64,000 nt of DNA. It comes from Meghimatium bilineatum (lineage: Eukaryota; Mollusca; Gastropoda; Stylommatophora; Philomycidae). A program made the position numbers and the translations under genes. The stretch is from positions 11,301,212 through 11,365,211 of the forward strand of contig CM067311.1 in assembly GCA_034231615.1 (NCBI GenBank). Direction: 5' to 3'. Shown here piece after piece: positions 2,746 to 43,915 of the stretch. How positions within the stretch are numbered: position 1 is the stretch's first letter; each line of letters opens with the position of its first letter. Under the pieces are notes generated by a model, which was given only the letters and a program-made list of their open reading frames with translations, did not search any database and was not told the DNA's origin.

Positions 2746-2904
2746 TACGGTGATGAGAAGCTTCGCATTGCTGTTATAACAAATAACATTTTTTTAAATA
2801 AAAAGAACACACACAAAAATATGAGTTAAGTCTACATCTCACAAGAAACAAGAATATTTGTACAGGCTGGAGAATCCCTGTAATACAATCAGAATGCAAA
2901 CAAA

Positions 2905-3042
2905 ATGACCAACAGAGGTGCGAATAACACAATTTTACTGTGGAACTTGCAGCACAACGTACTTCACGCTTCCTGCGGAAATCACACGATATATTCGTTG
3001 TGGTTACAAGAGAGCGAACGCAGAAGAAGAAAGCACTAGTGA
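2905..3042 (+). repeat. SINE family 2, 3' end
   Basis: Holds GCAGCACAACGTACTTCACG, then a 3' tail ending GAGCGAACGCAGAAGAAGAA. The same segment is on the minus strand at 33,165-33,305 and at the 3' end of the long retroposon at 46,810-46,950. The tail is shared with SINE family 1. Confidence 0.75.
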
Positions 3043-3404
3043 TTTATACAGTTTGATTTTAATTTTAACACTGATATTGTGTTTCCAAATCAAGTTTAGC
3101 TTTGATTTTGGACTCGGAGACAGTGCTATAGTTGGGTAAATTCAAGTAGGAAGCAAGAGGATACATTTTATTATTTCAAAAGTAAACTACATGAATTATG
3201 AACGTACACCAATTTTGAAACACACATTTATCCCAAAGGAAACCAAAAGACAAAATCATAAATTCAACCTTCATACGAAAGGTTGTGTTATCAATGTTAG
3301 ACATGGACACTAACTAAAGAACAAGAGAGACAGCTTACTACGTGTGAAACGAGATGTCTAATAAAAGCAGCAAACAAAAAGAGATTACAAGAACTGTTGG
3401 AACA
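3043..3404. other. No recognisable gene
   Basis: AT-rich, with nothing I can assign. Confidence 0.4.
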
Positions 3405-3575
3405 ACATCTTCTTCTTCAGCGTTCATCCTCAAAATTCCTGCTGGATCTCTCTTGTAGCAGGACCATGATCCATTCTAGATTTCCAGCAGGATGTAGTTC
3501 AGAGAATGGAAATACATTGTGTCGCCGTTTTATTTGCGCCAATGGCCCGACACATCCATCTTTGGCAGGAGAACA
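3405..3575. repeat. SINE family 3 copy
   Basis: Sequence running from TTCTTCTTCAGCGTTCATCC to CCGACACATCCATCTT. It recurs at 28,365-28,530 and 55,470-55,640. The first part is the reverse complement of the SINE family 1 tail (GAACGCAGAAGAAG and the CTGGACTACATCCTGCT block), so the real orientation is probably minus. Confidence 0.7.
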
Positions 3576-3594
3576 ACATCTGTGGTGAAGTATA

Positions 3595-3865
3595 TTGAAA
3601 ACAGAGACTGAAATGGTTTGGCCACTTATGAGAATGAATCCTTATTGGCCAGCCGCAAGAGCATACAACATGAAAATAAAAACAGCAAGATACAGAGAAA
3701 GACCAAGAAGAAGATGGATTGAAGGAGTTACAGATGTTCTGAGATGTTATAATATTATTGCATATCAAGCAACCAAACAAGCCATGGCCCAATCGTTATT
3801 CAACCCTGCGATGTCTTACAGCAAAAACAGAGAAAAGACAATAGACTGGGTATTTTTTTTAAATA
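3595..3865 (+). mobile_element. Non-LTR retrotransposon 3' end
   Basis: Encodes a typical post-reverse-transcriptase tail of a LINE: a W...RMN motif, then an RPRRRWIEGVTDVLR stretch, with a frame that stays open to about 3,880. The fragment at 24,540-24,900 encodes a related tail. The reverse transcriptase itself is absent, as expected from 5' truncation on insertion. Confidence 0.75.
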
Positions 3866-4129
3866 TATATTTAGAGGAGTAAACCCCAACAGAAAAAACC
3901 AAGACCCTAAAGCAGAGAATTGTGTATTAAACCATCTTTTGTAGTCTGCTTATTTTCAAGCATACTAGCATTGCATTTCGCATCTAAACTATTATTCAAA
4001 GCCTCCAAGTAAAAATTGATAAAGCAGTATCTTAATAAAACTTGCTTGTTTATTTGAGTGGTCTTTGTTAATTTTTTTGCTTCTTTCATAAGCCTCCACT
4101 GCAGCCATATCTCTCCGCATCTCAAGGGG
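3866..4129. other. No recognisable gene
   Basis: AT-rich spacer between two LINE fragments, with no motif I can name. Confidence 0.4.
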
Positions 4130-4590
4130 TTCTACATTTGTAGAAACAACTTGTAGAAAACTGGCAACCAAACCACAGAATAAAACAAAAGTCAGTCCTG
4201 AGACATGTCAATGAAATAAAAGACAGCTATCACCTCCCAGACAAGAGACAAGAACTGCAAAGAGTAGAAAAATGTTGGTTTTAATGTGGGTTTTAATTGC
4301 TGGAAATCAAAACACAATTAAGAGATAATGCAATGAAAAGTTCTGACCCAGTAAATCTTATGAACGCAACACAGAAAACAATAGACACTTACCCAGAAAA
4401 ATGGATTCATGTCTATACTGATGGGACTGCTTTCAGAGCCACCATCAAAGCAGGTTATCTGATGAGTTGTTGATGCCTGTGGGGAGATATGTTCTAACTG
4501 TAAAGCCGAAATAACAGCACTAGAAGTTCAATTGTACCATCTGAAGACCATATTTGATGTATTTCAATCAAAAGTCCAAAATGTTATTTT
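4130..4590 (+). pseudogene. RNase H domain of a LINE, 5' part (split by hAT insertion)
   Basis: Encodes the first three acidic positions of an RNase H fold in several frames: YTDGTAF (first D), KAEITALE (E) and NVIFIDS (third acidic position). The reading then stops at the insertion at 4,599 and resumes at 23,238 with LQALECDG and, further on, QWISGHSN and DKADRLAK. RNase H downstream of reverse transcriptase is typical of the I and Jockey-like LINE groups. Stops and frameshifts show the copy was decaying. Confidence 0.85.
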
Positions 4591-4598
4591 CATAGACT
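4591..4598 (+). repeat. Target-site duplication, left copy (hAT insertion)
   Basis: CATAGACT, repeated at 23,230-23,237. An 8-bp duplication is the hallmark of hAT transposition. The match extends one more base (C), so the exact boundary is ambiguous by one position. Confidence 0.8.
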
Positions 4599-4784
4599 CG
4601 ATGCCGTCTTAACGCATAGGCCCGTTGGGCATTTGCCCGGGGGCCCATGAGCATAGGGGCCCCATGCGAATATGTTGTTGGGTTTCGGAAAACCCGTATA
4701 AAATTTAGTATTATTTTATAAAAATCTCATAATTTTGTATTTATATGCGAACAGGCCCTTTAAGTTTATTAATCACTTCCAACC

Positions 4785-5597
4785 TTGAACCTGCACCAAT
4801 GTTCAGGAATGTCATTTACCATTTACAATTCTTTGGAAGGGCATTCTAGAAAGGATGAATACAACAAGCAAAGTTTTACAATCAAAGGATGTGAACATCC
4901 TAGTTGCCACAAATCATCGCTGAAAAGCTATCTTCAAGAAACTAGAGACAAATTCACTGAATATGAATTCAAAGCCAGGAGTATGTATCCAGATGCCGAT
5001 TACAGTGATGGAAAAAAAAGAGAACGAACCTGAAGTGTGCGTTTTAGTAGGTATGATAAGCCAGGAGAAGAGTTACTTCTAAATAAGTCTGAAAAGTTCA
5101 AGGTAGAATCATTCCTCCCTATTCTGGACACTTTAATAGTTGAACTAACAAGACGTGTAGAGGCGTATTCACAAATTGGAATTCTGTTTTCTTTCTTGAG
5201 TGAATTAAAAACCATTACTTCTGATGCACTAAAGAAAAAATGCGAACATCTTGCCAATACGTACCACAAGGACTTGAGTTATGACGACCTTTTAAATGAA
5301 TGTGAACATCTCAAGCACTACATGGCTCTTGATGAAAATTGTGAGACTCTCCCTGCACTGTACAGAAAAATAATTTTGGACAATTTAAAATCTGTTTTTT
5401 TTCTGAACATTGAAATTGCACTCAGAGTGTTCATGTGCATGATGGTGAGCAACTGTACAGGAGAACTTTATTTTTCAAGACTCAAACTTATTAAACAAAA
5501 TTAGCTTCGTAGTACAATGGGATATCATCGTTTGAACTGGCTTTCACTCATGAGCATAGAAAATGACATCCTGAAGACCATTGACTTCAAGCCGATA
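4785..5597 (+). pseudogene. hAT transposase, C-terminal part with dimerisation domain, broken
   Basis: A single frame, interrupted by stops at 5,031-5,033 and 5,505-5,507, encodes the end of a ZMYM1-like or TTF-type hAT transposase. It contains a KFKVESFLPILDTLI stretch, a KKCEHLANTY stretch, the dimerisation motif NCTGELYFSRLKLIK (normally NCSGERSFS), and after the stop LRSTMGYHRLNWLSLMSIE. The DNA-binding and most of the catalytic region are missing. Position 5,598 is where the CACTG element landed, cutting the frame just after the sequence encoding TIDFKPI. Confidence 0.88.
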
Positions 5598-5598
5598 A

Positions 5599-7734
5599 CA
5601 CTGTGCAACACATAAAAAAATTACAGACATGAAAATAATGATTTCCTACTGAAAATGTGGTGAGAAAAACGAATATCACATTAAAAATTCTCAGTTTGCT
5701 CTTATTGTTGTGATATTCCTTGTTTATTGTGTCGAAAAAAGTGGAAAATTTTTCTGACGAAAAATTTATTCAGCGACGAATGCATGTTGACACCGTGCGA
5801 CTTCTCTCAATGGCCGCTATATTGTTTAAATCGTGTGTTGATGTAACAAACAAACCACATATTTCAACATGTGTGTATATAATTAATATTTTCAAGTAGT
5901 ATATATATATTTTATTTTCCAGTGCTATAAATGTCTGAATTTGTATAAAGATTGGATTCCATAATGTCACGATAGTGCGTTAATAGTGCTAACAATTTTT
6001 GCTATGTTTGTGGCGAGGGGACGTTGTCGTCTCAAAAACGGAAAATTACACCTTTAATTAAAACTGCATATCATCTTTACTTCGGCTGTAAGATAGGTGA
6101 TCAAGACAAACCCTGGGCATCTCACATTTGCTGTATTACATGTACTGTGAAACTCTGTGGTTGGCTGAATGGCAAAGTGCGGTCAATGCCTTTCGCGATT
6201 CCTATGATATGGAGAGAGCCGAGAGATCATGTAAGTGACTGCTATTTTTGTATGGTGCCTCCTCTCCAACACGGAATATCTAAAAAGAAGAAGTGGACTT
6301 TGAATTACCCCAATATTCCATCAGCTATACGGCCAGTACCACATGGAAAAGATCTGCCTGTTCCTACCTCACCCAACCAGAAAGTTATAGAGCTTGATGC
6401 AGATTGTGGTCAAGAAATACAACCTGAATTTGAACAGGAAGATACTCAATTCACACCAATAGGTTCTGTTGATATTCTACATAGAATTTCTCAAAATGAA
6501 CTAAGTGACTTAATTCGAGATCTTGACTTATCTAAAACAAAAGCTGAACTTCTTGCATCAAGACTTCAGCAGTGGAATCTCCTGGATAAAAATGTTAAGG
6601 TGTCTATGTACAGAGAACGTCAGAAATCTCTAACTCCATTTTTCACAATGAATAATAGCATTGTTGCTTGCCATGATGTTAATGGGCTTATGGAAGCTTT
6701 GAAAATAGAGCACATACAACAAGAGTGGAGGTTATTCATTGACTCATCAAAGTTAAGTTTGAAAGCAGTTTTGCTACACAATGACAATTCATTACCTTCT
6801 ATCCCTATAGGCCATGCTGTCCACATGAAGGAGACTTATGAAAATATGAAATTACTTCTTAAAGCAATAAAATATGATGATCATCAGTGGCAGATTTGTG
6901 CAGACTTGAAAGTTATTGCAATTTTACTTGGCATGCAATTAGGTTACACAAAATATTGTTGCTTTCTGTGTGAATGGGACAGTCGACAGAGAACTTCTCA
7001 TTACATTAGGAAAACTTGGCCTGATAGGAAGGTTATGGAGCCTGGTGAAAAGAATGTACAGCAAATTTCTTTGGTTGATAGAAATAAAATAATTCTACCT
7101 CCTCTTCATATTAAATTGGGGCTAATGAAGAACTTTATCAAGGGCATGAATAGGGAGGGAGAGGCATTTAAGTACTTGAGGAAAAAATTTCATTACCGTA
7201 GTGATGGTAAAATAAAGGAAGGATTATTTGTAGGCCCACAGATAAGGGAACTGTTGAAAGATGAGCATTTTGATGCCATTATTCATGGGAATGAGAAAGG
7301 TGCATGGCAATCTTTCAAATGTGTTGTACAAAATTTCCTGGGCAATCATAGAAGTGAGAACTATCCTGTTGCTATTAATGAACTTCTGACAGCATATCAA
7401 CAATTAGGTTGCAACATGTCACTTAAGATTCACTTCCTGGATTCTCATCTTGATTTCTTCCCTCCAAATTGTGGTGCAGTAAGTGATGAACATGGGGAGC
7501 GTTTCCACCAAGACATTGCATTGATGAAAAAAGGTACCAGGGTAAGTGGAATACATCCATGCTTACTGACTACTGCTGGAATGTCACAAGAGAAGCTCTA
7601 GAAGTGGTATACAAGAGGAAAAGGAAACAATAAGAAATAGGATTTTTAATACAAATATTGAAATTACAATAACTCAAAAACTAGAGCTGATTTATTCTTG
7701 TAAAAAAAAACAAACTTTTTTTTGTTGCACAGTG
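5599..7734 (+). mobile_element. Complete CACTG-end DNA transposon, 2,136 bp
   Basis: The terminal inverted repeats are CACTGTGCAACA at 5,599 and its complement TGTTGCACAGTG-like end at 7,734, followed inward by A/T runs. TAA stands immediately on each side (5,596-5,598 and 7,735-7,737), consistent with a 3-bp target duplication. CACTA/CACTG ends with short duplications are known from the CMC (CACTA-Mirage-Chapaev) group; TAA would also fit the TWA target of Harbinger elements, but the protein is not a recognisable Harbinger transposase. The element lies inside the hAT transposase. Confidence 0.8.
5964..7633 (+). pseudogene. Transposase-like protein of the CACTG element, nonsense and frameshift
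   Basis: The ATG at 5,964 is followed by a TAG as the fourth codon. Beyond it the frame runs through a zinc-binding FCYVCGEGT motif and is then open to 7,601. Further motifs, numbered from the TTG codon at 6,024 taken as residue 1: C-x2-C pairs near 37-40 and 73-76, RPVPHGKDLPVP near 103-114, FIDSSK (D240), ICADLKV (D294), CCFLC (312-316), PPLHIKLGLMKNF (359-371), and SDEHGERFHQDI (487-498). Near 7,530 the frame shifts; in the other frame the expected YQGKWN...LTDYCWN tail continues to a TAA at 7,631. D240, D294 and the E of the EHGER motif, with a C(2)C pair between the last two, look like a DDE transposase core. That assignment is inference. Similar proteins are widespread and mostly uncharacterised in invertebrates. 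Confidence 0.75.
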
Positions 7735-7749
7735 TAATTAAGAAGCACT

Positions 7750-8034
7750 GTTAATAATCATGAAACTTCGTAAACTCTGGTGGTTTGAGCACATGATGAG
7801 ACATGCCTCAATGACAAGATATGTTCTTGAAGGTACGGTGGAGGGTGGAAGAAGATGAGGTGGAAAGCAGAAAATATGGCTGGATAATATCAAGGATTGG
7901 ATAGGGTGTAAAGTTTCCAAACTCGCCAGGATGGTAGAGGATAGAAATGCGTGGAGATCTTTCTGCACCAAATGTCTCAAGTGACACCCCTAAAACCCTG
8001 ATGGGTTATGGGTTTATTATTATTCATTAAGGTA
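7750..8034 (+). mobile_element. LINE 3' end inside the hAT element
   Basis: Encodes a LINE tail (LWWFEHMMRHASM, then KQKIWLDNIKDWIG and EDRNAWRSF) followed by a tail with TTATTATTATT repeats. The glycine/arginine-rich stretch is interrupted by TGA at about 7,857. It sits directly after the CACTG element, so at least two elements entered the hAT here. Confidence 0.75.
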
Positions 8035-8595
8035 CAACTATTTGTTGTACCTGACAAGGTAATTTGCTGTTCATGACAGCAAAGTGGAATTTCATCACAA
8101 ATTGGTCAGGAATGATGATTTTGAAAAGTGTTGTTAAATAGGAAATTTTGTTCTAAAGGAATTTGGTACAATGGGACTCCACTGTACAACTAACTATTTG
8201 TTGTACCTCAGCAAAGTAATACTTCGTTATTCATGACAGTACAACTATTTGTTGTACAGGATAAGGCAATAATTTGTTATTCATAGCAGTACAACTATTA
8301 GTTGTACATAATAAGGCAATAATTTGTTGTTCATGACACCAGAACTATTTGTTGTACATGATAAGGCAATAATTTCATGTTCACAACAGTACAACTATTT
8401 GTTGTATTTGACAAGGCAATAATTTGTTGTTCACAACATTACAACTATTTGTTGTACTTGATAAGGCAATAATTTGTTATTCATAACCGTACAACTATTT
8501 GTTGTACATAAGGCTATAATTTGTTTTCATGACAGTACAACTTTGTTGTACACGATAAGGCAATAATTTGTTATTCATAGCAGTACAACTGTTTG
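8035..8595. repeat. Hairpin minisatellite array, about 48-50 bp unit
   Basis: About nine to ten units, each with a copy or variant of GTACAACTATTTGTTGTAC (inverted arms of 7 bp) and a spacer like GATAAGGCAATAATTTG. Mutations fall in both arms and spacer. The same family flanks the CACTG fragment at 1,167. The stretch 8,595-8,765 after it has a few LINE-like codons (LNIKKTKIM), too short to call. Confidence 0.85.
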
Positions 8596-9929
8596 TTCAA
8601 AAAAACACAGAAAAGCTCAAAATCTGTTCCTAAATATTAAGAAAACTAAAATTATGACAATAGATAAAGTCTCAATCTCAAATCAAAAATAATAATTCAT
8701 ACCTATGAACTGGAAAACGTATTAAATTTTTAAAAAACGTATTGAATTGGTGGACCTGTATTAATACTAGTTTATCATTAGAAATATATTTTTTAATTTT
8801 CGTGTTTAAACTTTTCAACATATTTCATAAATGTATCTAGTTTATCACTGGAAATATATTTTTTAATTTTTAGTCAAACTTTTCAACACATTTCATAAAT
8901 GTATCTAATTTATCATTAGAAATATATTTTTTTATTTTTTTTTTCAAACTTTTCAACACATCTCATAAATGTATCTACCAGTAGATTATCACTAGAAATA
9001 TATCTTTTCATTTTCTTTTTCAAACTTTTCAACACATTTCATAAATGTATCTAATTTATCATTAGAAATATATATTTTTGATTTTCAAACTGTTCAACAC
9101 ATCTCATAAATGTATCTACCGGTAGAGTATCAATAGAAATTTATTTTTTTATTTTCTTTTTCAAACTTTTCAACACATTTCATAAATGTATCTAATTTAT
9201 CATTAGAAAAATATTTCTTTGATATTGAAACTTTTCAACACATTTCAGAAATGTATCTAGTTTATCATTCGAAATATATTTTTTTATTTTCTTTTTCAAA
9301 CTTTTCAACACATCTCATAAATGTATCTACCGGTAGTTTATCATTAGAAATATATTTTTTTATTTTCTTTTTCAAACTTTTCAACAAATTTCATAAATGT
9401 ATCTACTTTATCATTAGAAATATATTTTTTAATTTTTTTTCAAACTTTTCAACACATTTCATAAATGTATTTAATTTATCATTAGAAATATATTTTTTTA
9501 TTTTCTTTTTCAAACTTTTCAACACATCTCATAAATGTATCTACCGGTAGATTATCACTAGAAATATATCTTTTCATTTTCTTTTTCAAACTTTTCAACA
9601 CATTTCATAAATGTATATAGTTTATCATTAGAAATATTTATTTTTTATTTTCTTGTTTAAACTTTTCAACACATTTCATAAGTGTATATAGTTGATCAAT
9701 AGAAATTTTTATTTTTTATTTTCTTGTTCAAACTTTTCAACATATTTCATAAATGTATATAGTTTATCACTAGAAATATATTTTTTCATTATCTTTTCCA
9801 AACATTTCAACACATTTCATAAATGTATCTAGTTTAACTTTAGAAATATATTTTTTGATTTTGAAACTTTTCAACACATTTCATAAATGTATCTACCAGT
9901 AGTTTATTATTACAAATATATTTTTGGAT

Positions 9930-12900
9930 TTTCTTTTTCAAACTTTTCAACACATTTCATAAATGTATATAGTTTATCATTAGAAATAATTTTTTTTATT
10001 TTCTTGTTTAAACTTTTCAACATATTTCATAAATGTATCTAGTTTATAACTAGAAATATATTTTTTAATTTTTAGTCAAACTTTTCAACACATTTCATAA
10101 ATGTATCTAATTTATCAGTAGAAATATATTTTTTTATTTTCTTTTTCAAACTTTTCAACACATCTCATAAATGTATCTACCAGTAGATTATCACTAGAAA
10201 TATATCTTTTCATTTTCTTTTTCAAACTTTTCAACACATTTCTTAAATGTATATAGTTTATCATTAGAAATATTTTTTTTTTATTTTCTTGTTTAAACTT
10301 TTCAACACATTTCATAAATGTATCTAATTTATCATTAGAAAAATATTTCTTTGATTTTGAAACTTTTCAACACATTTCAGCAATCATTAGAAATAGTTTA
10401 TCATTTGAAATATATTTTTTTATTTTCTTTTTCAAACTTTTCAACACATCTCATAAATGTATCTACCGGTAGTTTATCATTAGAAATATATTTTTTAATT
10501 TTCTTTTTCAATCTTTTCAACACATCTCATAAATGTATCTACCAGTAGATTATCACTAGAAATATATTTTTTGATTTTCTTTTTCAAACTTTTCAACACA
10601 TTTCATAAATGTATCTAATTTATCATTAGAAATATATATTTTTGATTTTCAAACTGTTCAACACATCTCATAAATGTATCTACCAGTAGAGTATCAATAG
10701 AAATTTATTTTTTTATTTTCTTTTTCAAACTTTTCAACACATTTCATAAATGTATCTAATTTATCATTAGAAAAATATTTCTTTGATATTGAAACTTATC
10801 AACACATTTCATAAATGTATCTAGTTTATCAATAGAAATAAATCAAAATTTTTTGATATTTTTTTGATTTTATAACTGATCAACACATTTCATAAATGTA
10901 TCTACCGGTAGAGTATCACTAGAAATATATTTTTTGATTTTCTTTTTCAAACTTTTCAACACATCTCATAAATGTATCTACCGGTAGATTATCATTAGAA
11001 ATATATTTTTTGATTTTCTTTTCCAAACTTTTCAACACATTTCATAAGTGTATATAGTTGATCAAAAGAAATTTATTTTTTTGATTTTCTTTTTCAAACT
11101 TTTCAACACATTTCATAAGTGTATATAGTTGATCAATAGAAATTTTTATTTTTTATTTTCTTGTTCAAACTTTTCAACATATTTCATAAATGTATATAGT
11201 TTATCACTAGAAATATATTTTTTCATTATCTTTTCCAAACATTTCAACACATTTCATAAATGTATCTACCAGTTGTTTATTATTACAAATATATTTTTGG
11301 ATTTTCTTTTTCAAACTTTTCAATACATCTCATAAATGTATCTACCGGTAGTTTATCATTAGAAATATATTTTTTTATTTTCTTTTTCAAACTTTTCAAC
11401 ACATCTCATAAATGTATCTACCAGTAGTTTATCATTAGAAATATATTTTTTTATTTTCTTTTTCAAACTTTTCAACAAATTTCATAAATGTATCTACTTT
11501 ATCATTAGAAATATATTTTTTAATTTTTTTTCAAACTTTTCAACACATTTCATAAATGTATCTAATTTATCATTAGAAATATATTTTTTTATTTTCTTTT
11601 TCAAACTTTTCAACACATCTCATAAATGTATCTACCGGTAGATTATCACTAGAAATATATCTTTTCATTTTCTTTTTCAAACTTTTCAACACATTTCATA
11701 AATGTATATAGTTTATCATTAGAAATATTTATTTTTTATTTTCTTGTTTAAACTTTTCAACACATTTCATAAGTGTATATAGTTGATCAATAGAAATTTT
11801 TATTTTTTATTTTCTTGTTCAAACTTTTCAACATATTTCATAAATGTATATAGTTTATCACTAGAAATATATTTTTTCATTATCTTTTCCAAACATTTCA
11901 ACACATTTCATAAATGTATCTAGTTTAACTTTAGAAATATATTTTTTGATTTTGAAACTTTTCAACACATTTCATAAATGTATCTACCAGTAGTTTATTA
12001 TTACAATTATATTTTTGGATTTTCTTTTTCAAACTTTTCAACACATCTCATAAATGTATCTACTGGTAGTTTATCATTAGAAATATATTTTTTTATTTTC
12101 TTTTTCAAACTTTTCAACACATCTCATAAATGTATGTACCGGTAGTTTTTCATTAGAAATATATTTTTTTATTTTCTTTTTCAAACTTTTCAACACATTT
12201 CATAAATGTATATAGTTTATCATTAGAAATAATTTTTTTTATTTTCTTGTTTAAACTTTTCAACATATTTCATAAATGTATCTAGTTTATAACTAGAAAT
12301 ATATTTTTTAATTTTTAGTCAAACTTTTCAACACATTTCATAAATGTATCTAATTTATCAGTAGAAATATATTTTTTTATTTTCTTTTTCAAACTTTTCA
12401 ACACATCTCATAAATGTATCTACCAGTAGATTATCACTAGAAATATATCTTTTCATTTTCTTTTTCAAACTTTTCAACACATTTCTTAAATGTATATAGT
12501 TTATCATTAGAAATATTTTTTTTTTATTTTCTTGTTTAAACTTTTCAACACATTTCATAAATGTATCTAATTTATCATTAGAAAAATATTTCTTTGATTT
12601 TGAAACTTTTCAACACATTTCAGCAATCATTAGAAATAGTTTATCATAAGAAATATATTTTTTTATTTTCTTTTTCAAACTTTTCAACACATCTCATAAA
12701 TGTATCTACCGGTAGTTTATCATTAGAAATATATTTTTTAATTTTCTTTTTCAATCTTTTCAACACATCTCATAAATGTATCTACCAGTAGATTATCACT
12801 AGAAATATATTTTTTGATTTTCTTTTTCAAACTTTTCAACACATTTCATAAATGTATCTAATTTATCATTAGAAATATATATTTTTGATTTTCAAACTGT

Positions 12901-15440
12901 TCAACACATCTCATAAATGTATCTACCAGTAGAGTATCAATAGAAATTTATTTTTTTATTTTCTTTTTCAAACTTTTCAACACATTTCATAAATGTATCT
13001 AATTTATCATTAGAAAAATATTTCTTTGATATTGAAACTTATCAACACATTTCATAAATGTATCTAGTTTATCAATAGAAATAAATCAAAATTTTTTGAT
13101 ATTTTTTTGATTTTATAACTGATCAACACATTTCATAAATGTATCTACCGGTAGAGTATCACTAGAAATATATTTTTTGATTTTCTTTTTCAAACTTTTC
13201 AACACATCTCATAAATGTATCTACCGGTAGATTATCATTAGAAATATATTTTTTGATTTTCTTTTCCAAACTTTTCAACACATTTCATAAGTGTATATAG
13301 TTGATCAAAAGAAATTTATTTTTTTGATTTTCTTTTTCAAACTTTTCAACACATTTCATAAGTGTATATAGTTGATCAATAGAAATTTTTATTTTTTATT
13401 TTCTTGTTCAAACTTTTCAACATATTTCATAAATGTATATAGTTTATCACTAGAAATATATTTTTTCATTATCTTTTCCAAACATTTCAACACATTTCAT
13501 AAATGTATCTACCAGTTGTTTATTATTACAAATATATTTTTGGATTTTCTTTTTCAAACTTTTCAATACATCTCATAAATGTATCTACCGGTAGTTTATC
13601 ATTAGAAATATATTTTTTAATTTTCTTTTTCAAACTTTTCAACACATCTCATAAATGTATCTACCAGTAGTTTATCATTAGAAATATATTTTTTTATTTT
13701 CTTTTTCAAACTTTTCAACAAATTTCATAAATGTATCTACTTTATCATTAGAAATATATTTTTTAATTTTTTTTCAAACTTTTCAACACATTTCATAAAT
13801 GTATCTAATTTATCATTAGAAATATATTTTTTTATTTTCTTTTTCAAACTTTTCAACACATCTCATAAATGTATCTACCGGTAGATTATCACTAGAAATA
13901 TATCTTTTCATTTTCTTTTTCAAACTTTTCAACACATTTCATAAATGTATATAGTTTATCATTAGAAATATTTATTTTTTATTTTCTTGTTTAAACTTTT
14001 CAACACATTTCATAAGTGTATATAGTTGATCAATAGAAATTTTTATTTTTTATTTTCTTGTTCAAACTTTTCAACATATTTCATAAATGTATATAGTTTA
14101 TCACTAGAAATATATTTTTTCATTATCTTTTCCAAACATTTCAACACATTTCATAAATGTATCTAGTTTAACTTTAGAAATATATTTTTTGATTTTGAAA
14201 CTTTTCAACACATTTCATAAATGTATCTACCAGTAGTTTATTATTACAATTATATTTTTGGATTTTCTTTTTCAAACTTTTCAACACATCTCATAAATGT
14301 ATCTACTGGTAGTTTATCATTAGAAATATATTTTTTTATTTTCTTTTTCAAACTTTTCAACACATCTCATAAATGTATGTACCGGTAGTTTTTCATTAGA
14401 AATATATTTTTTAATTTTCTTTTTCAAACTTTTCAACACATTTCATAAATGTATATAGTTTATCATTAGAAATAATTTTTTTTATTTTCTTGTTTAAACT
14501 TTTCAACATATTTCATAAATGTATCTAGTTTATAACTAGAAATATATTTTTTAATTTTTAGTCAAACTTTTCAACACATTTCATAAATGTATCTAATTTA
14601 TCAGTAGAAATATATTTTTTTATTTTCTTTTTCAAACTTTTCAACACATCTCATAAATGTATCTACCAGTAGATTATCACTAGAAATATATCTTTTCATT
14701 TTCTTTTTCAAACTTTTCAACACATTTCTTAAATGTATATAGTTTATCATTAGAAATATTTTTTTTTTATTTTCTTGTTTAAACTTTTCAACACATTTCA
14801 TAAATGTATCTAATTTATCATTAGAAAAATATTTCTTTGATTTTGAAACTTTTCAACACATTTCAGCAATCATTAGAAATAGTTTATCATAAGAAATATA
14901 TTTTTTTATTTTCTTTTTCAAACTTATCAACACATTTCATAAATGTATCTAGTTTATCAATAGAAATAAATCAAAATTTTTTGATATTTTTTTGATTTTA
15001 TAACTGATCAACACATTTCATAAATGTATCTACCGGTAGAGTATCACTAGAAATATATTTTTTGATTTTCTTTTTCAAACTTTTCAACACATCTCATAAA
15101 TGTATCTACCGGTAGATTATCATTAGAAATATATTTTTTGATTTTCTTTTCCAAACTTTTCAACACATTTCATAAGTGTATATAGTTGATCAAAAGAAAT
15201 TTATTTTTTTGATTTTCTTTTTCAAACTTTTCAACACATTTCATAAGTGTATATAGTTGATCAATAGAAATTTTTATTTTTTATTTTCTTGTTCAAACTT
15301 TTCAACATATTTCATAAATGTATATAGTTTATCACTAGAAATATATTTTTTCATTATCTTTTCCAAACATTTCAACACATTTCATAAATGTATCTACCAG
15401 TTGTTTATTATTACAAATATATTTTTGGATTTTCTTTTTC
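9930..15440. repeat. 2,243-bp higher-order repeat in the satellite
   Basis: Blocks starting near 9,930, 12,173 and 14,416 repeat the same ordered series of variant monomers with an offset of exactly 2,243 bp (for example 10,115 and 12,358 and 14,601). Only a handful of substitutions were noticed between blocks, for example a TTGA-to-AAGA change near 10,400 and 12,643. The third block lacks 358 bp near 14,925, so later landmarks are offset by 1,885 bp. This is a recent large tandem duplication rather than slow monomer-by-monomer drift. Confidence 0.85.
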
Positions 15441-16319
15441 AATCTTTTCAACACATGTCATAAATGTATCTACCGGTAGATTATCACTAGAAATATATCT
15501 TTTCATTTTCTTTTTCAAACTTTTCAACACATTTCATAAATGTATCTACTTTATCACTAGAAATATATTTTGTTGCTTTTCAAACTTTTCAACACATTTC
15601 ATAAGTGTATATAGTTTATCAATAGAAATTAATTTTTTGATTTTCTTTTTCAAACTTATCAACACATATCATAAATGTATCTAGTTTATCATTAGAAATA
15701 AATCAACATTTTTTGATATTTTTTTGATTTTCAAACTGTTCAACACATCTCATAAATGTAACTAGTTTATCATTAGAAATATATTTTTTGATTTTGAAAC
15801 TTTTCAACACATTTCATAAATGTATCTACCAGTACTTTATTATTAGAAATATATTTTTTGATTTTCTTTTTCAAACTTTTCAACACATCTCATAAATGTA
15901 TGTACCGGTAGTTTATCATTAGAAATATATTTTTTTATTTTCTTTTTCAATCTTTTCAACACATCTCATAAATGTATCTACCGGTAGATTATCACTAGAA
16001 ATATATCTTTTCATTTTCTTTTTCACAATTTTGAACACATTTCATAAATGTATATAGTTTATCATTATAAATATATTTTTTTAATTTTCTTGTTCAGACT
16101 TTTCAACATATTTCATAAATGTATATAGTTTATCACTAGAAATATATTTTTTTATTTTCTTTTCCAAAATTTTCAACACATTTCATAATTGTATATAGTG
16201 TATCAATAGAAATTTATTTTTTTATTTTCTTTTTCAAAGTTTTCAACACATTTCATAAATGTATCTAGTTTATCATTAGAAATATATTTTTTTTTAATTT
16301 TCAAACTTTTCAACACATC

Positions 16320-18300
16320 TCATAAATGTATGTACCGGTAGTTTATCATTAGAAATATATTTTTTTATTTTCTTTTTCAATCTTTTCAACACATCTCATA
16401 AATGTATCTACCGGTAGATTATCAATAGAAATATATCTTTTCATTTTCTTTTTCAAACTTTTCAACACATTTCATAAGTGTATATAGTTTATCAATAGAA
16501 ATTTATTTTTTGATTTCCTTTTTGAAATTTTTCAACACATTTTATAAATGTATCTAGTTTTTATCATTAGAAATATATTTTTTTGATTTTGAAACTTTTC
16601 AACACATTTCATAAATGTATCTAGTTTATCATTAGAAATATATTTTTTATTTTCTTTTTGAAACTTTTCAACACATTTCATAAATGTATCTAGTTTATCA
16701 TTAGAAATATATTTTTTTATTTTCTTTTTGAAACTTTTCAACACATCTCATAAATGTATGTACCGGTAGTTTATCATTAGAAATATATTTTTTTATTTTC
16801 TTTTTCAATCTTTTCAACACATCTCATAAATGTATCTATCGGTAGATTATCACTAGAAATATATCTTTTCATTTTCTTTTTCAAACTTTTCAACACATTT
16901 CATAGTTGTATATAGTGTATAAATAGAAATTTATTTTTTGATTTTCTTTTTCAAACTTTTCAACATATTTCATAAATGTATATAGTTTATCACTAGAAAT
17001 ATATTTTTTGATTTTCTTTTCCAAAATTTTCAACACATTTCATAATTGTATATAGTGTATCAATAGAAATTTATTTTTTTATTTTCTTTTTCAAAGTTTT
17101 CAACACATTTCATAAATGTATCTAGTTTATCATTAGAAATATATTTTTTTTTTATTTTCAAACTTTTCAACACATTTCATAAGTGTATATAGTGTATCAA
17201 TAGAAATTTATTTTTTGATTTTCTTTGTGAGATTTTTCAACACATTTCATAAATGTATCTAGTTTTTATCATTAGAAATATATTTTTTCATTTTGAAACT
17301 TTTCAACACATTTCATAAATGTATCTAGTTTATCATTAGAAATATATTTTTTTATTTTCTTTTTCAAACTTTTCAACACATCTCATAAATGTATGTACCG
17401 GTAGTTTATCATTAGAAATATATTTTTTTATTTTCTTTTTCAATCTTTTCAACACATCTCATAAATGTATCTACCGGTAGATTATCAATAGAAATATATC
17501 TTTTCATTTTCTTTTTCAAACTTTTCAACACATTTCATAAGTGTATATAGTTTATCAATAGAAATTTATTTTTTGATTTCCTTTTTGAAATTTTTCAACA
17601 CATTTTATAAATGTATCTAGTTTTTATCATTAGAAATATATTTTTTTGATTTTGAAACTTTTCAACACATTTCATAAATGTATCTAGTTTATCATTAGAA
17701 ATATATTTTTTATTTTCTTTTTGAAACTTTTCAACACATTTCATAAATGTATCTAGTTTATCATTAGAAATATATTTTTTTATTTTCTTTTTGAAACATT
17801 TCAACACATCTCATAAATGTATCTACCTGTAGTTTATCATTAGAAATATATTTTTTTATTTTCTTTTTCGAACTTTTCAACACATCTCATAAATGTATGT
17901 ACCGGCAGTTTATCATTAGAAATATATTTTTTATTTTCTTTTTCAATCTTTTCAACACATCTCATAAATGTATCTACCGGTAGATTATCACTAGAAATAT
18001 ATCTTTTCATTTTCTTTTTCAAACTTTTCAACACATTTCATAGTTGTATATAGTGTATAAATAGAAATTTATTTTTTGATTTTCTTTTTCAAACTTTTCA
18101 ACATATTTCATAAATGTATATAGTTTATCACTAGAAATATATTTTTTGATTTTCTTTTCCAAAATTTTCAACACATTTCATAATTGTATATAGTGTATCA
18201 ATAGAAATTTATTTTTTTATTTTCTTTTTCAAAGTTTTCAACACATTTCATAAATGTATCTAGTTTATCATTAGAAATATATTTTTTTTAAATTTCAAAC
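16320..18300. repeat. 1,063-bp higher-order repeat in the satellite
   Basis: Monomer order from 16,320 recurs from 17,383, with an offset of 1,063 bp (landmarks 16,532 and 17,595). The second block gains one monomer near 17,820, after which the offset is about 1,136 bp. Confidence 0.75.
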
Positions 18301-20309
18301 TTTTCAACACATCTCATAAATGTATCTACCGGTAGATTATCACTAGAAATATATCTTTTCATTTTCTTTTTCACAATTTTGAACACATTTCATAAATGTA
18401 TATAGTTTATCATTATAAATATATTTTTTTATTTTCTTTTTCAAACTTTTCAACACATCTCATAAATGTATGTACCGGTAGTTTATCATTAGAAATGTAT
18501 TTTTTTATTTTCTTTCTCAATCTTTTCAACACATCTCATAAATGTATCTACCGGTAGATTATCACTAGAAATATATCTTTTCATTTTCTTTTTCAAACTT
18601 TTCAACACATTTCATAAATGTATATAGTTTATCATTATAAATATATTTTTTTTTTATTTTCAAACTTTTCAACACATTTCATAAGTGTATATAGTTTATC
18701 AATAGAAATTTATTTTTTGATTTTCTTTTTTAAATTTCTCAACACATTTCATAAATGTATCTAGTTTTTATCATTAGAAATGTATTTTTTTTATTTTGAA
18801 ACTTCTCAACACATCTCATAAATGTATCTACCGGTAATTTATCATTAGAAATATATTTTTTTATTTTCTTTTTAAAACTTTTCAACACATCTCATAAATG
18901 TATGTACCGGTAGTTTATCATTAGAAATATATTTTTTTATATTCTTTTTCAATCTTTTCTACACATTTCATAAATGTATCTACCGGTATATTATCACTAG
19001 AAATATATCTTTTCATTTTCTTTTTCAAACTTTTCAACACATTTCATCATTGTATATAGTTTATCATGAGAAATATATTTTTTTTATTTTTAAACTTTTC
19101 AACACATTTCATAAGTGTATATAGTTTATCAATAGAAATTTATTTTTTGATTTTCTTTTTGATATTTTTCAACACATTTCATAAATGTATCTAGTTTTTA
19201 TCAATAGAAATATATTTTTTATTTTCTTTTTGAAACTTTTCAACACATCTCATAAATGTATATAGTTTATCACTAGAAATATATTTTTTGATTATCTTTT
19301 CCAAACTTTTCAACACATTTCATAAATGTATCTAGTTTATCATTAGAAATATTTTTTTTGTATTTTTAAAATTTTCAACACATTTCATAATTGTATATAG
19401 TGTATCAATAGAAATTTATTTTTTTATTTTCTTTTTCAAAGTTTTCAACACATTTCATAAGTGTATATAGTGTATCAATAGAAATTTATTTTTTGATTTT
19501 CTTTTTGAAATTTTTCAACACATTTCATAAATGTATCTAGTTTTTATCATTAGAAATATATTTTTTTATTTTCTTTTTCAAACTTTTCAACACATCTCAT
19601 AAATGTATGTACCGGTAGTTTATCATTAGAAATATATTTTTTTATTTTCTTTTTCAAACTTTTCAACACATTTCATAAGTGTATATAGTTTATCAATATA
19701 AATTTATTTTTTGACTTTCTTTTTCAAACTTTTCAACACATCTCATAAGTGTATGTACCGGCAGTCTATCATTAGAAATATATTTTTTTATTTTCTTTTT
19801 CAATCTTTTCAACACATCTCATAAATGTATCTACTGGTAGATTATCACTAGAAATATATCTTTTCATTTTCTTTTTCAAACTTTTCAACACATTTCATAA
19901 ATGAATATAGTTTATCATTAGAAATATATTTTTTTTTATTTTCTTGTTTAAACTTTTCAACACATCTCATAAATGTATATAGTTTATCAATAGAAATTTT
20001 TTTTTTTATTTTCTTTTTCAAAGTTTTCAACACATTTTATAAATGTATCTAATTTATTATTAGAAATATATTTCTTTGATTTTGAAACTTTTCAACAGAT
20101 TTCAGCAATGTATCTAGTTTATCATTAGAAATATATATTTTTATTTTCTTGTTCAAACTTTTCAACACATTTCATAAATGAACATAGTTTATCATTAGAA
20201 ATAATTTTTTTTTATTTTCTTGTTCAAACTTTTCAACACATTTCATAAATGTATCTAATTTATCATTAGAAAAATATTTCTTTGATTTTGAAACTTTTCA
20301 ACACATTTC

Positions 20310-21350
20310 ATAAATGTATCTTGTTTATTATTAGAAATATATTTTTTATTTTCTTTTTCAAACTTTTCAACACATCTCATAAATGTATATAGTTTATCAT
20401 TAGAAATATATTTTTTTTATTTTGAAACTGTTCAACACATCTCATAAATGTATCTTGTTTATTATTAGAAATATATTTTTTATTTTCTTTTTCAAACTTT
20501 TCAACACATCTCATAAATGTATCTACTGGTAGATTATCAATAGCAATATATCTTTTCATTTTCTTTTTCAAACTTTTCAACACATTTCATAAGTGTATAT
20601 AGTGTATAAATAGAAATTTATTTTTTTATTTTCTTTTTCAAACTTTTCAACATATTTCATAAATGTATATAGTTTATCACTAGAAATATATTTTTTGATT
20701 TTCTTTTCCAAAATTTTCAACACATGTCATAATTGTATATAGTGTATCAATAGAAATTTATTTTTTTATTTTCTTTTTCAAAGTTTTCAACACATTTCAT
20801 AAATGTATCTAGTTTATCATTAGAAATATTTTTTTAAAATTTTCTTGTTCAAACTTTTCAACACATTTCATAAATGTATCTACCGGTAGATTATCACTAG
20901 AAATATATCTTTTCATTTTATTTTTCAAACTTTTCAACACATTTCAGAAATATATTTTTTTTATTTTAAAACTTTTCAACACATTTCATAAATGTATCTT
21001 GTTTATTATTAGAAATATATTTTTTATTTTCTTTTTCAAACTTTTCAACACATCTCATAAATGTATATAGTTTATCATTAGAAATATATTTTTTTTATTT
21101 TGAAACTGTTCAACACATCTCATAAATGTATCTTGTTTATTATTAGAAATATATTTTTTATTTTCTTTTTCAAACTTTTCAACACATCTCATAAATGTAT
21201 CTACTGGTAGATTATCAATAGCAATATATCTTTTCATTTTCTTTTTCAAACTTTTCAACACATTTCATAAGTGTATATAGTGTATAAATAGAAATTTATT
21301 TTTTTATTTTCTTTTTCAAACTTTTCAACATATTTCATAAATGTATATAG
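20310..21350. repeat. 678-bp higher-order repeat in the satellite
   Basis: The run containing the TATCTTGTTTATTATTAG variant near 20,315 recurs at 20,993 (offset 678 bp). Part of it appears a third time near 22,215. Confidence 0.75.
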
Positions 21351-22940
21351 TTTCAACACATTTCATAAATGTATCTACCGGTAGATTATCACTAGAAATA
21401 TATCTTTTCATTTTATTTTTCAAACTTTTCAACAAATTTCATAAATGTATATAGTTTATTATTAGAAATAATTTTTTTTATTTTCTTGTTCAAACTTTTC
21501 AACACATTTCATAAATGTATCTAATTTATCATTAGAAAGATATTTCTTTGATTTTGAAACTTTTCAACACATTTCATAAATGTATCTAGTTTATCATTAG
21601 AAATATATTTTTTAATTTTCTTTTTCAATCTTTTCAACACATCTCATAAATGTATCTACTGGTAGTTTATCATAAGAAATAAATTATTTTTTTTTCTTTT
21701 TCATCTTGTCAAAATATCTCATAAATGTATCTACCCGTAGATTATCACTAGAAATATATCTTTTCATTTTCTATTTCAAACTTTTTAAAAATATTTCATA
21801 AATGTATATAGTTTATCATTAGAAATATTTTTTTTTCAATTTTTCTTTTTCAAAGTTTTCAACACATTTCATAAATGTATCTAGTTTATCATTAGAAATA
21901 TTTTTTTAAAATTTTCTTGTTCAAACTTTTCAACACATTTCATAAATGTATCTACCGGTAGATTATCACTAGAAATATATTTTTTTTATTTTAAAACTTT
22001 TCAACACATTTCATAAATGTATCTAGTTTATCATTAGAAATATATTTTTTTGATTTTAAAACTTTTCAACACATCTCATATATGTATCTACCGGTTGATT
22101 ATCACTAGAAATATATCTTTTCATTTTCTTGTTCAAACTTTTCAACACATTTCATAAATGTATCTAATTTATTATTAGAAATATATTTCTTTGATTTCGA
22201 AACTTTTCAACACATTTCATAAATGTATCTTGTTTATTATTAGATATATAGTTTTTATTTTCTTTTTCAAACTTTTCAACACATCTCATAAATGTATATA
22301 GTTTATCATTAGAAATATATTATTTTGATTTTGAAACTGTTCAACACATCTCATAAATGTATCTTGTTTATTATTAGAAATATATTTTTTATTTTCTTTT
22401 TCAAACTTTTCAACACATCTCATAAATGTATCTACTGGTAGATTATCAATAGCAATATATCTTTTCATTTTCTTTTTCAAACTTTTCAACACATTTCATA
22501 AGTGTATATATATATAGTTTATCAATAGAAATTTATTTTTTTATTTTCTTTTTGAAATCTTTCAACACATTTCATAAATGTATATAGTTTATCATTAGAA
22601 ATATTTTTTTTTTATTTTCTTGTTCAAACTTTTCAACACATTTCATAAATGTATCTAGTTTATCATTAGAAATATATTTTTTTTATTTTAAAACTTTTCA
22701 ACACATTTCATATATGTATCTACCGGTTGATTATCACTAGAAATATATCTTTTCATTTTCTTGTTCAAACATTTCAACAGATTTCATAAATGTATCTAAT
22801 TTATTATTAGAAATATATTTCTTTGATTTTGAAACTTTTCAACACATTTCAGCAATGTATCTAGTTTATCATTAGAAATATATATTTTTATTTTCTTTTT
22901 CAAACTTGTCAACACATTTCATAAATGTATATACCGGGTA

Positions 22941-23229
22941 TATCATTCACTATGATCTTGCAAGTAATGCTATAAAACATGTGAATAAAATCTATTTTCT
23001 CTGTTTTTCATGTTTAATGTTAATAATAGTTGCAGCTGTACAGCATGTTTTAACAACAATTTGGTTGAAATGAGTATAGTGACAATAAAATAAATAATAC
23101 ATTATTTTTAATATTATCAACCATTTATTGTTTATTCCTGCGGGGGAGGGGGGCCCCACTCTTTCTTTGCCCAGTGGCCCAACACTATTTCTCTGCCCAG
23201 GGGCCCAGAATGGTGTAGAGACGGCTCTG
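22941..23229 (+). mobile_element. 3' terminal region of the hAT element
   Basis: Unique sequence resumes after the satellite and ends in a G/C-rich subterminal zone with GGGGCCC and CCCAGTGGCCC stretches and the terminal GACGGCTCTG. This mirrors the GGCCC-rich left end at 4,599-4,700. Confidence 0.7.
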
Positions 23230-23237
23230 CATAGACT
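23230..23237 (+). repeat. Target-site duplication, right copy (hAT insertion)
   Basis: CATAGACT, identical to 4,591-4,598. Confidence 0.8.
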
Positions 23238-23900
23238 CTTCAAGCACTAGAATGTGATGGACGTTGTAAGCCTGAGCTGGTGGAAATATATCACCATGCC
23301 AACCAACTGCTTACATCTTATGAAGTTAGCATTGTTATGCAGTGGATATCTGGCCACTCAAATACACCTGACAATGACAAGGCAGACAGATTAGCAAAGA
23401 TGAGAGCTCAACAAGAACAGCGATACACACAAGCAACCATGCACACAGTTAAAATGATGCTGACATCTGAAACAAAGAAAATTGGATGAACAGATGAGCC
23501 ATGGGAAACACTGGAAGGCAAATCTATAAATATATGACTAGCCCAAATCCTAAAGACAATATCAACCTCCTGAGAAGAAAAGACCAGAGTATCATCTTCT
23601 GACTACGCACACAACATGTACAGCTTAACCATCACTTGAACAGAATACAACCACAACACACTCCAGGGTGCCGGCTGTGCACTCATCCCTATGAAACTGT
23701 TGACCACCAACTTTTTGAATGCCCAGCTCTGGATGACATCAGGAAAATGCTTCTCCCTCCAGGGCCAGATAAATGGAACACATTATTTGGAACAAAACAA
23801 CAGCTCACAAACACATGCATATATCACACAATGGCATTGGGTCAAAGGGCATGAGCCCATGGACCGCTGGATCAGTAACCAACCAACCAATAAAATTTGC
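23238..23900 (+). pseudogene. LINE RNase H 3' part and C-terminal zinc knuckle
   Basis: Continues the RNase H interrupted at 4,590. After LQALECDG come QWISGHSNTP and DKADRLAK, the last catalytic positions. From about 23,630 a cysteine-histidine cluster follows, encoded as CRLCTHPYETVDHQLFEC, then the ending HTMALGQRA. The 3' end CATGGACCGCTGGATCAG plus AACCAACCAA is shared with 56,575-56,617 and 58,600-58,660, so these belong to one LINE tail family. Stops at about 23,487 and 23,537 break the frame. Confidence 0.85.
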
Positions 23901-24339
23901 CTAGGAAAGAAATCATGTGTGAAACATAGACACTATGCATTTTGGCAATTTAATTAATTTGAGGGTCTCCTCATTCATGTGAAATTTTGCACCGGCCAGC
24001 TTTTCGACCGTCTGTAAAGACGCAAAAAGCCATAATTTTGTATGTTTTCTTTTAACTATATCAAGACCTTGTTTTAATGTATTCAGGTAGAGGGTAACTT
24101 TGTTTCATAAAATGGGGTCGCAGATAAGTTTGTTTCTGTAAAATGGGGTCATGACTAGAAAATATTTCAGAATCAGAGCGGTTGATATAGAAGAAATCTA
24201 TTATTTCTGAGACATGTCTCTAATTCTGTGACAATCATTCTTTGATATACTTCTGTCATTCATTGTGGTTAAAAAAAAATATGACAAAACACTTCATTAT
24301 AATTTTCAACAATTTTACTTACATTAAATATCTATTCTA
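23901..24339. other. No recognisable gene
   Basis: Contains a short imperfect duplication with ATAAAATGGGGTCGCAG and TGTAAAATGGGGTCATG about 30 bp apart near 24,110-24,150. Nothing else is assignable. Confidence 0.4.
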
Positions 24340-43320: not shown

Positions 43321-43915
43321 AATAATTGTCTGTGAAAACTTTCTTGGTAATCATAAGTCCCCTACGTACAGGGAAGGAGTTCAGCGTCTAATAGATTCTT
43401 ACCAGAACCTTGGCTGTCGCATGTCATTAAAAGTGCACTTCTTGCACTCCCATGTAGATTTATTCCCAGAAAATCTTGGTATGGTGAGTGAAGAGCAAGG
43501 AGAACGTTTTCACCAGGACATTCAGTTAATGGAGCGCCGTTATCAAGGTTTGTGGAATGAGAGTATGATGGCCGACTTCTGCTGGATGCTATTCCGTGAT
43601 AATCCAGGCGAAGAATATAACAGAAAATCAAATTCCAAGCATTTTTGAAGAAACATTCTACATATCTATGCTGTGATGTAAGTATATTTGATTTAGTCTA
43701 GAAGATGTGAATCATTTGCTTAATTGATGTTTGCGATTCTCGAAAAAATACAGCCAAGTTCAGTGAAAACTAACATCACTCATAACTTTAAAACTTGACG
43801 TGATAGAAAAAAACTGATACCAGATCTGAAATCAGCGCCAAAAAATCCTTTAGAAAAGTGTATTTTGGTTTCAGATGATTAAAAAAAGTTTTATTTTGTT
43901 GCCTTGTGTAATCAC
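43321..43915 (+). pseudogene. Second, divergent CACTG-type transposase copy, 3' part
   Basis: From 43,324 to the stop at 43,646-43,648 the frame encodes ENFLGNHKSPTYREGVQRLI, MSLKVHFLHSHVDLFPENLG, SEEQGERFHQDIQLMERRYQ and MADFCWMLFRD. This aligns with the last quarter of the protein at 5,964-7,633 but differs at many positions, so it is another subfamily. It keeps the reading frame across the point where the first copy is shifted. The 3' sequence ends TTTTGTTGCCTTGTGTAAT, resembling the TIR TTTGTTGCACAGTG, so the element end is probably near 43,910. Confidence 0.8.

Follow-up and report, generated by a model that had tools for sequence, protein, structure and literature searches.

A satellite array of about 14.2 kb between the ends of a hAT-type transposon in Meghimatium bilineatum and its plausible origin as repair filler

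In a 64,000-nucleotide stretch of the Meghimatium bilineatum genome (C14:11301212-11365211, hereafter the window, whose coordinates are prefixed with w where needed), a long interspersed nuclear element (LINE) is interrupted by a hAT-type transposon copy with a large satellite array between its two ends. This arrangement raises the question of how a satellite came to lie inside a cut-and-paste transposon, and whether the transposon made the array, took it up or carries such arrays to new places. From searches of the genome (1.61 Gb, 32 contigs) we conclude that the satellite was captured, and we incline, with some reserve, to the view that it entered as filler when the interior of an inserted hAT copy was repaired.

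The hAT insertion and its empty site

The element spans 4599-23229 (18,631 bp) and is flanked by an exact duplication, CATAGACT, of the 8-bp target-site length of the hAT superfamily. On the forward strand of the window, CATAGACT is found only at these two borders, while on the reverse strand it occurs once, at 50637. Just within the duplication the left terminus reads CGATGCCGTCTTAACGC and the inverted right terminus CAGAGCCGTCTCTACAC, GCCGTCT being common to both, so that the borders and the hAT-like polarity of the ends are as the initial annotation of this stretch had described them. The terminal inverted repeats (TIRs) begin with CA (CGATGCCGTCT and CAGAGCCGTCT, the left one with one G for A), and CAATGCC is the left end in two other copies of the family (L006 and L008).

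The initial annotation had suggested that an empty LINE site be sought, and we found one, uninterrupted, in a LINE paralogue on contig C10 (L044, C10:25743800-25746800). This copy aligns with w2899-4599 and then directly with w23230 onward, and over the join it reads TTTTCATAGACTCTTCAAG, which is identical to both window flanks fused with one CATAGACT. Excision had also been expected to rejoin RNase H codons of the LINE, with the peptide NVIFIDS on the left and LQALECDG on the right. The flanks do fuse as in the C10 copy, but the two peptide stretches are not in one frame, because 11 bases have been lost from the LINE. Two other LINE copies, one near the copy B described below and one on C22 (L046), have 11 extra bases at the insertion place, and the C10 LINE is without them, as is the window LINE; in LINE copy L045 the insertion place was not matched by the motif. 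Since the C10 LINE also lacks these bases, their loss predates the hAT insertion, and the frame shift gives no reason to suspect a misjoin. The two hAT ends, the single exact duplication and the empty site in the C10 paralogue together place the satellite within the transposon, not beside it, which upholds the central claim of the initial annotation. The parts of the window discussed here are the following.

1-2898, + strand: copy of the X region, with part of the CACTG-ended transposon (1167-1469) and without 7735-8730 (sequence comparison)
2899-4598, + strand: left part of the host LINE, ending in the first CATAGACT (alignment to the C10 LINE L044)
4591-4598, + strand: left copy of the 8-bp target-site duplication (forward-strand search; C10 empty site)
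4599-5598, + strand: hAT left end and remnant of the transposase gene (alignment to L027 and L028)
5599-7734, + strand: nested transposon with CACTGTGCAACA ends, TAA duplication and a 541-codon frame (empty place in copy A; open reading frame list; Pfam)
7735-8730, + strand: X, chromosomal DNA containing a 25/50-bp tandem repeat (seen free of hAT at locus C)
8731-8766, + strand: short stretch of unexplained origin at the join of X and satellite (copy B diverges here)
8767-22952, + strand: satellite array of about 198 copies of an AT-rich unit, mostly 65-76 bp (Tandem Repeats Finder, TRF; BLAST)
9899-14954, + strand: 2,243-bp tandem duplication within the array, 99.5% (offset scan)
22957-23229, + strand: hAT right end, up to 94% identical to other hAT copies (join read by eye)
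23230-23237, + strand: right copy of the 8-bp target-site duplication (forward-strand search; C10 empty site)
23238-24261, + strand: right part of the host LINE, which extends at least to 24261 (C10 LINE, 94%)

A dispersed element of about 155 bp (w3408-3562) recurs many times in copies A and B (L020-L026) and at some other loci.

Composition of the insert

The insert had been described as hAT plus satellite. Both are present, but it also contains a nested transposon and about 1 kb of chromosomal DNA, which we call X, and the hAT share of the 18,631 bp is about 1.27 kb. Searches with the hAT ends gave 461 candidate places for the left end and 519 for the right, and the best 40 of each, the window's own included, were scored. 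The longest relatives among those read measure about 2.78 kb. Two of them are near-complete, L027 on C22 (2,775 bp) and L028 on C7 (2,778 bp), and have exact 8-bp duplications and no satellite. L027 can be assigned to the hAT transposases by a match to Dimer_Tnp_hAT (PF05699; E 9.4e-8, above the curated cut-off), with a DUF4371 match below threshold, although its transposase gene is itself broken into several frames. In a motif scan of 14 other copies both ends were matched in eight, which are 1.1 to 2.8 kb long and all have a perfect 8-bp duplication; in the remaining six, an end went unmatched. Aligned to L027 and L028, the window copy has lost about 1280 bp of the transposase gene at 4821/4823; the gene then reaches 5598 and the element resumes at about 22957, about 220 bp of hAT between the two being absent. 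A Pfam search with five open frames of the window gave no useful match. The right end shares up to 94% identity with other hAT copies among the best 40 of 519, and those nearest to it (L010-L018) are either long hAT copies or extended 3′ portions of such copies, which argues against an origin from a clearly different hAT subfamily; this comparison does not separate one element from two.

The satellite was delimited by TRF at 8767-22930 (198 copies) and extended by BLAST to 22952, giving about 14.2 kb between the two hAT ends. Exact matches to a 33-mer of its consensus number 9,426 in forward and 10,239 in reverse orientation across the genome (19,665 in all), with 20 in the window's 14.2-kb array and 14 in 23.3 kb of copy A; from these two densities we estimate that the satellite may amount to some 14-33 Mb of the genome. 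The initial annotation had left two origins open, growth from sequence within the element or capture. Since the satellite is genome-wide and the 2.78-kb relatives are without it, it was captured rather than grown from hAT sequence, and birth from the hAT can be ruled out.

Within the array, w9899-12711 and w12142-14954 are 99.5% identical over 2.8 kb, the trace of a 2,243-bp tandem duplication; for comparison, the window and copy A differ by about 2.6% (97.4% identity) over 2.5 kb of LINE and hAT. The 400 bp at w12000-12400 are matched at 100% only by their own second copy, the best match elsewhere being 93% (among the best 40 of 3,449), which means that the duplication arose in this array and was not brought in from a recent source. 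To judge by these identities, the array has evidently changed in place after its capture. We also cut the window satellite into 35 pieces of 400 bp and took the best match of each piece. The mean best match was 506 bits in copy A (23 kb), 497 on C1 (2.2 kb), 491 on C20 (3.5 kb) and 476 in copy B (11 kb), while the last 400 bp were nearest to B (532 bits versus 488 in A). A second tandem array in the window, at w34382-36449, has a unit of 162-164 bp and a 326-bp period with 96% matches (TRF).

No satellite was found with any of 23 other hAT copies (12 with 9-10 kb around them and 11 with 3.2 kb); their ends are those that most resemble the window's, so that they do not sample the family at random, and in L010-L018 about 1.8 kb inward of the right end was covered. 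The alignments of the 39 other right ends scored among the best 40 of 519 all start at query base 34 or 36, so that none of them reaches into the 33 satellite-side bases of the join. A satellite-bearing family of the Helentron or MITE type would have an internal array common to its members, and here 0 of 23 other copies examined carry the satellite. Ends never linked with the satellite, which the initial annotation had counted against its own view, are what we see in the copies examined, apart from two related copies on C14, A and B. No linked cases besides these were seen, and in them the satellite lies 20-25 kb from the hAT end. The suggestion that such a transposon is a vehicle for seeding satellite arrays therefore appears unsupported in general by the copies compared; it stays open for one composite, through copy B. 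We found no evidence that the satellite was made, or is being spread, by the transposon.

X (w7735-8730) is about 1 kb long and carries the 25/50-bp tandem repeat found by TRF. At locus C (11018 kb on C14), w1-1166 is followed directly by w7735-8549, with neither the hAT nor the CACTG-ended transposon. Because locus C has the order of X without hAT, X is chromosomal DNA, and since X extends there leftward into w1-1166, it is not a self-contained transposon that inserted in the hAT. The first 287 bases of X belong to a widely dispersed repeat (4,199 candidates); among the best 40 of these, full-length X (448 of 448 bases, 99-100%) occurs at four places, all on C14, namely the window, A, B and C. 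The further X-region copy at w1-2902, left of the LINE, ends 1.7 kb left of the hAT. Followed further along locus C, the likeness to the X region of the window stops at w2286, and 3 kb read at 10,999,500, about 12 kb further on, contain neither X nor satellite.

The nested transposon, which is the CACTG-ended one, is 2,136 bp long, with perfect 12-bp ends that were read by eye and a duplication of TAA (5596-5598 and 7735-7737). It has one open frame of 541 codons (5976-7601), which gave no Pfam match up to an E value of 1. Copy A reads GCCGATAATTAAG, the place of the nested transposon without the transposon. In the window and in copy B this transposon lies at the hAT/X join, and in A it lies elsewhere and inverted. 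Its first part is also present at w1167-1469 in the X-region copy left of the LINE, so that the same transposon starts at the same TAA in two contexts, w1164-1166 (X, left of the LINE) and w5596-5598 (hAT/X); it is absent from that TAA in A and C. Either two insertions at one target or gene conversion may account for this. A frame at 43322-43648 resembles that of the CACTG-ended transposon by eye.

Copies A and B on C14 and the origin of the insert

Copy A lies inverted, 80 kb from the window, with the same LINE/hAT join, and its hAT passes to X at the same base. Beyond X it continues with w1560-2902 (with the inverted CACTG-ended transposon inside), then about 15 kb more, and then at least 23 kb of satellite. 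Copy B (14.95 Mb) has the hAT left part, the CACTG-ended transposon and X in window order; it was read up to 14,991,999, where the sequence is still satellite. A and B match piecewise from the hAT left terminus into the satellite, mostly at 94-99% with one piece at 89%, and with insertions of up to several kb. B also has a frame open over 1,108 codons (L025, 3097-6423, minus strand), which by eye resembles a LINE protein with reverse transcriptase; nothing in the matching stretch of A corresponds to this part of B.

The left flank of copy B changes exactly at the hAT terminus, AGCACGGG being followed by CAATGC. Seven kb to the left is a 99-100% duplicate of this flank in which the site is empty, AGCACGGG being followed by TAGATAATATT. 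The pair (L023 2477-2484, at C14:14944476, and C14:14951429), of which one member is empty and the other has the composite, may reflect a duplication of recent date or the retention of two haplotypes by the assembly. The right flank expected for B, TAGATAATATT, has a single occurrence in the genome, that of the empty site, and no right end of B was found, none of the best 40 of 519 right ends besides the window's own being closer than 94% to the window's. Three origins would thus fit the look of copy B: a hAT left end whose other side was lost, a one-ended or alternative reaction, and a haplotype retained by mistake; its start exactly at the hAT terminus at another site is a hint that the composite moved.

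We think it somewhat probable that a hAT copy inserted in the LINE and that its interior was later replaced by repair filler, which is the anatomy of Pack-TIR elements. The hAT insertion itself is normal, with an 8-bp duplication, and beyond 5598 its sequence does not run on into the 220 bp of hAT that should follow but passes to X, with the CACTG-ended transposon at the join, and from there to the satellite and the hAT right end. A break or a stalled fork within the hAT would then have been repaired by copying, with template switches to X and to a satellite array, until the repair returned into the hAT right end. The enclosed array would have been altered further by tandem duplication, and copies A and B, on the same chromosome, would have come from duplication, B possibly through the hAT left end. 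As in Pack-TIR elements, TIR ends surround host DNA whose parent is extant, X in locus C and the satellite genome-wide. The four full-length copies of X among the best 40 candidates all lie on C14, and another copy of the X region ends 1.7 kb from the hAT, as expected of nearby filler. Microhomology, which is usual but not obligatory at the filler break, is present at the hAT/X join, where the hAT sequence stops at GCCGATAAT and the corresponding place of X at locus C reads GACAATAAT, with ATAAT common to both.

Several observations weigh against repair filler. For gap repair, 17.4 kb of filler drawn from two or more sources is a great length. The ATAAT match is of 5 bp and in such AT-rich DNA may have arisen by chance, the right join between satellite and hAT (22952-22957) has no clear microhomology, and the 36 bases at the left satellite join (8731-8766), where copy B diverges from the window, are without explanation. 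The bit scores are similar for A, C1, C20 and B and so single out no source array. Finally, other DNA separates the satellite from the hAT terminus by 20 kb in A and 25 kb in B, and in both copies its orientation to the hAT is the reverse of that in the window. Given this distance and orientation, the window satellite need not have entered in the same event as X. Simple inheritance of the satellite from the arrangement of A and B is disfavored, as its orientation is reversed and similarity singles out neither copy, even though the last 400 bp are nearest to B.

A single duplication with two good ends would also be expected if the ends of two hAT copies flanking X and satellite had been moved together into the LINE by macrotransposition or alternative transposition, the window later losing the DNA between X and satellite. 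We regard this as possible but doubtful. It accommodates the exact start of B at the hAT left terminus, with that site (AGCACGGG) empty in the neighboring duplicate, and the piecewise match of A and B from the terminus into satellite 20-25 kb away. Composite insertions of this kind are known for maize Ac (PMC4270019), and the hAT cut in mid-gene could be the fractured partner; since the maize partner can be a fractured element, the mid-gene cut does not speak against such an event. However, no second hAT right end was seen in the examined DNA of the window, A or B, none of the other right ends among the best 40 of 519 exceeds 94% identity to the window's, and the right flank expected for B is present only at the empty site. 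That the hAT left end moved a composite of tens of kb, made of chromosomal DNA and satellite, between two places on one chromosome, the LINE site and B, by one-ended or alternative transposition, a hAT thereby serving as carrier of a major satellite with arrays growing at the landing places, we consider rather unlikely.

In yet another route, segmental duplication or recombination among the X, LINE and satellite repeats of this part of C14 would have brought the satellite between the hAT ends, with no gap repair and no transposase after the first insertion. On C14 the X region exists in four or more rearranged versions, and A, inverted and partial, repeats the LINE/hAT join 80 kb from the window; in A and B the satellite runs the other way than in the window, and in A the CACTG-ended transposon is inverted and away from the hAT/X join. 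Nevertheless, rearrangement alone would have to leave the two hAT ends and the two halves of the LINE exactly in register, and it leaves the flank change of B exactly at the hAT terminus unexplained; we judge it quite improbable. Satellites are the usual place of assembly misjoins, and the left flank of B, a 99-100% tandem duplicate, may be a haplotype wrongly kept twice. Yet a false join of two LINE loci through the satellite would not yield the same 8-bp duplication on both sides, the LINE halves continue each other exactly as in the C10 copy, and the left join as far as X recurs independently in copy A, which makes an artefact very unlikely indeed.

Comparison with known systems

How satellites spread to new places is an open question, and here one genome offers intact transposon ends around satellite, a paralogue of the empty site, relatives free of satellite and DNA of the same kind as the filler. 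A link between DNA transposons and satellites is familiar from Drosophila virilis, where the foldback transposon Tetris, going by the title of the report (PMC4079207), is said to have supplied satellite building blocks; here, the satellite is foreign to the hAT. Among the titles and abstract openings listed, we came across no hAT that holds a sizeable part of a genome-wide satellite.

The closest likeness in our reading is to the Pack-TIRs of animals, TIR transposon copies that acquire filler in the course of repair. According to Tan et al. 2021 (PMC8277862), hAT is the commonest superfamily among them (208 of 370), filler is biased to nearby DNA, and microhomology was recorded in 190 (67.6%) of 281 unique cases. 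The window copy resembles them in its hAT ends and 8-bp duplication around filler, in the nearness of its filler and in the microhomology at the break. It differs from them in that the filler is mostly satellite, is 17.4 kb long and includes an array still changing within the element; the word satellite does not occur in the main text of PMC8277862. The maize Ac/Ds composites (PMC4270019) arise from an intact and a fractured Ac and include insertions of, for example, 14,287 and 23,647 bp with 8-bp duplications. They likewise have hAT termini around kilobases of nearby DNA, an 8-bp duplication and a join with or without microhomology. In contrast to them, no reversed hAT pair was found in the DNA examined here, and our case is natural and old, with a few percent divergence between copies.

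Tandem repeats inside transposons are known as well. miDNA4, a Tc1/mariner miniature inverted-repeat transposable element, has captured a tandem repeat that is present as one monomer or as an array of variable number (review PMC12628747). It too is a TIR transposon with a captured repeat expanding inside, for which microhomology was proposed, whereas we find one giant hAT copy and no satellite in 23 others. The Cg_HINE Helentrons of oyster carry satellite-like repeats (PMC7492417) and resemble our case in having such arrays within mobile elements; however, central repeats are a feature of Helentrons, and here the element is a cut-and-paste hAT in a single composite lineage.

Our results indicate that satellite can be taken up when hAT copies are filled, and that an array so acquired can go on to change where it lies; should copy B be confirmed, transposase could then move satellite. 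The kind of structure is already known, that of TIR transposons with repair filler, and the window adds a variant of it, in which much of a hAT copy consists of a genome-wide satellite.

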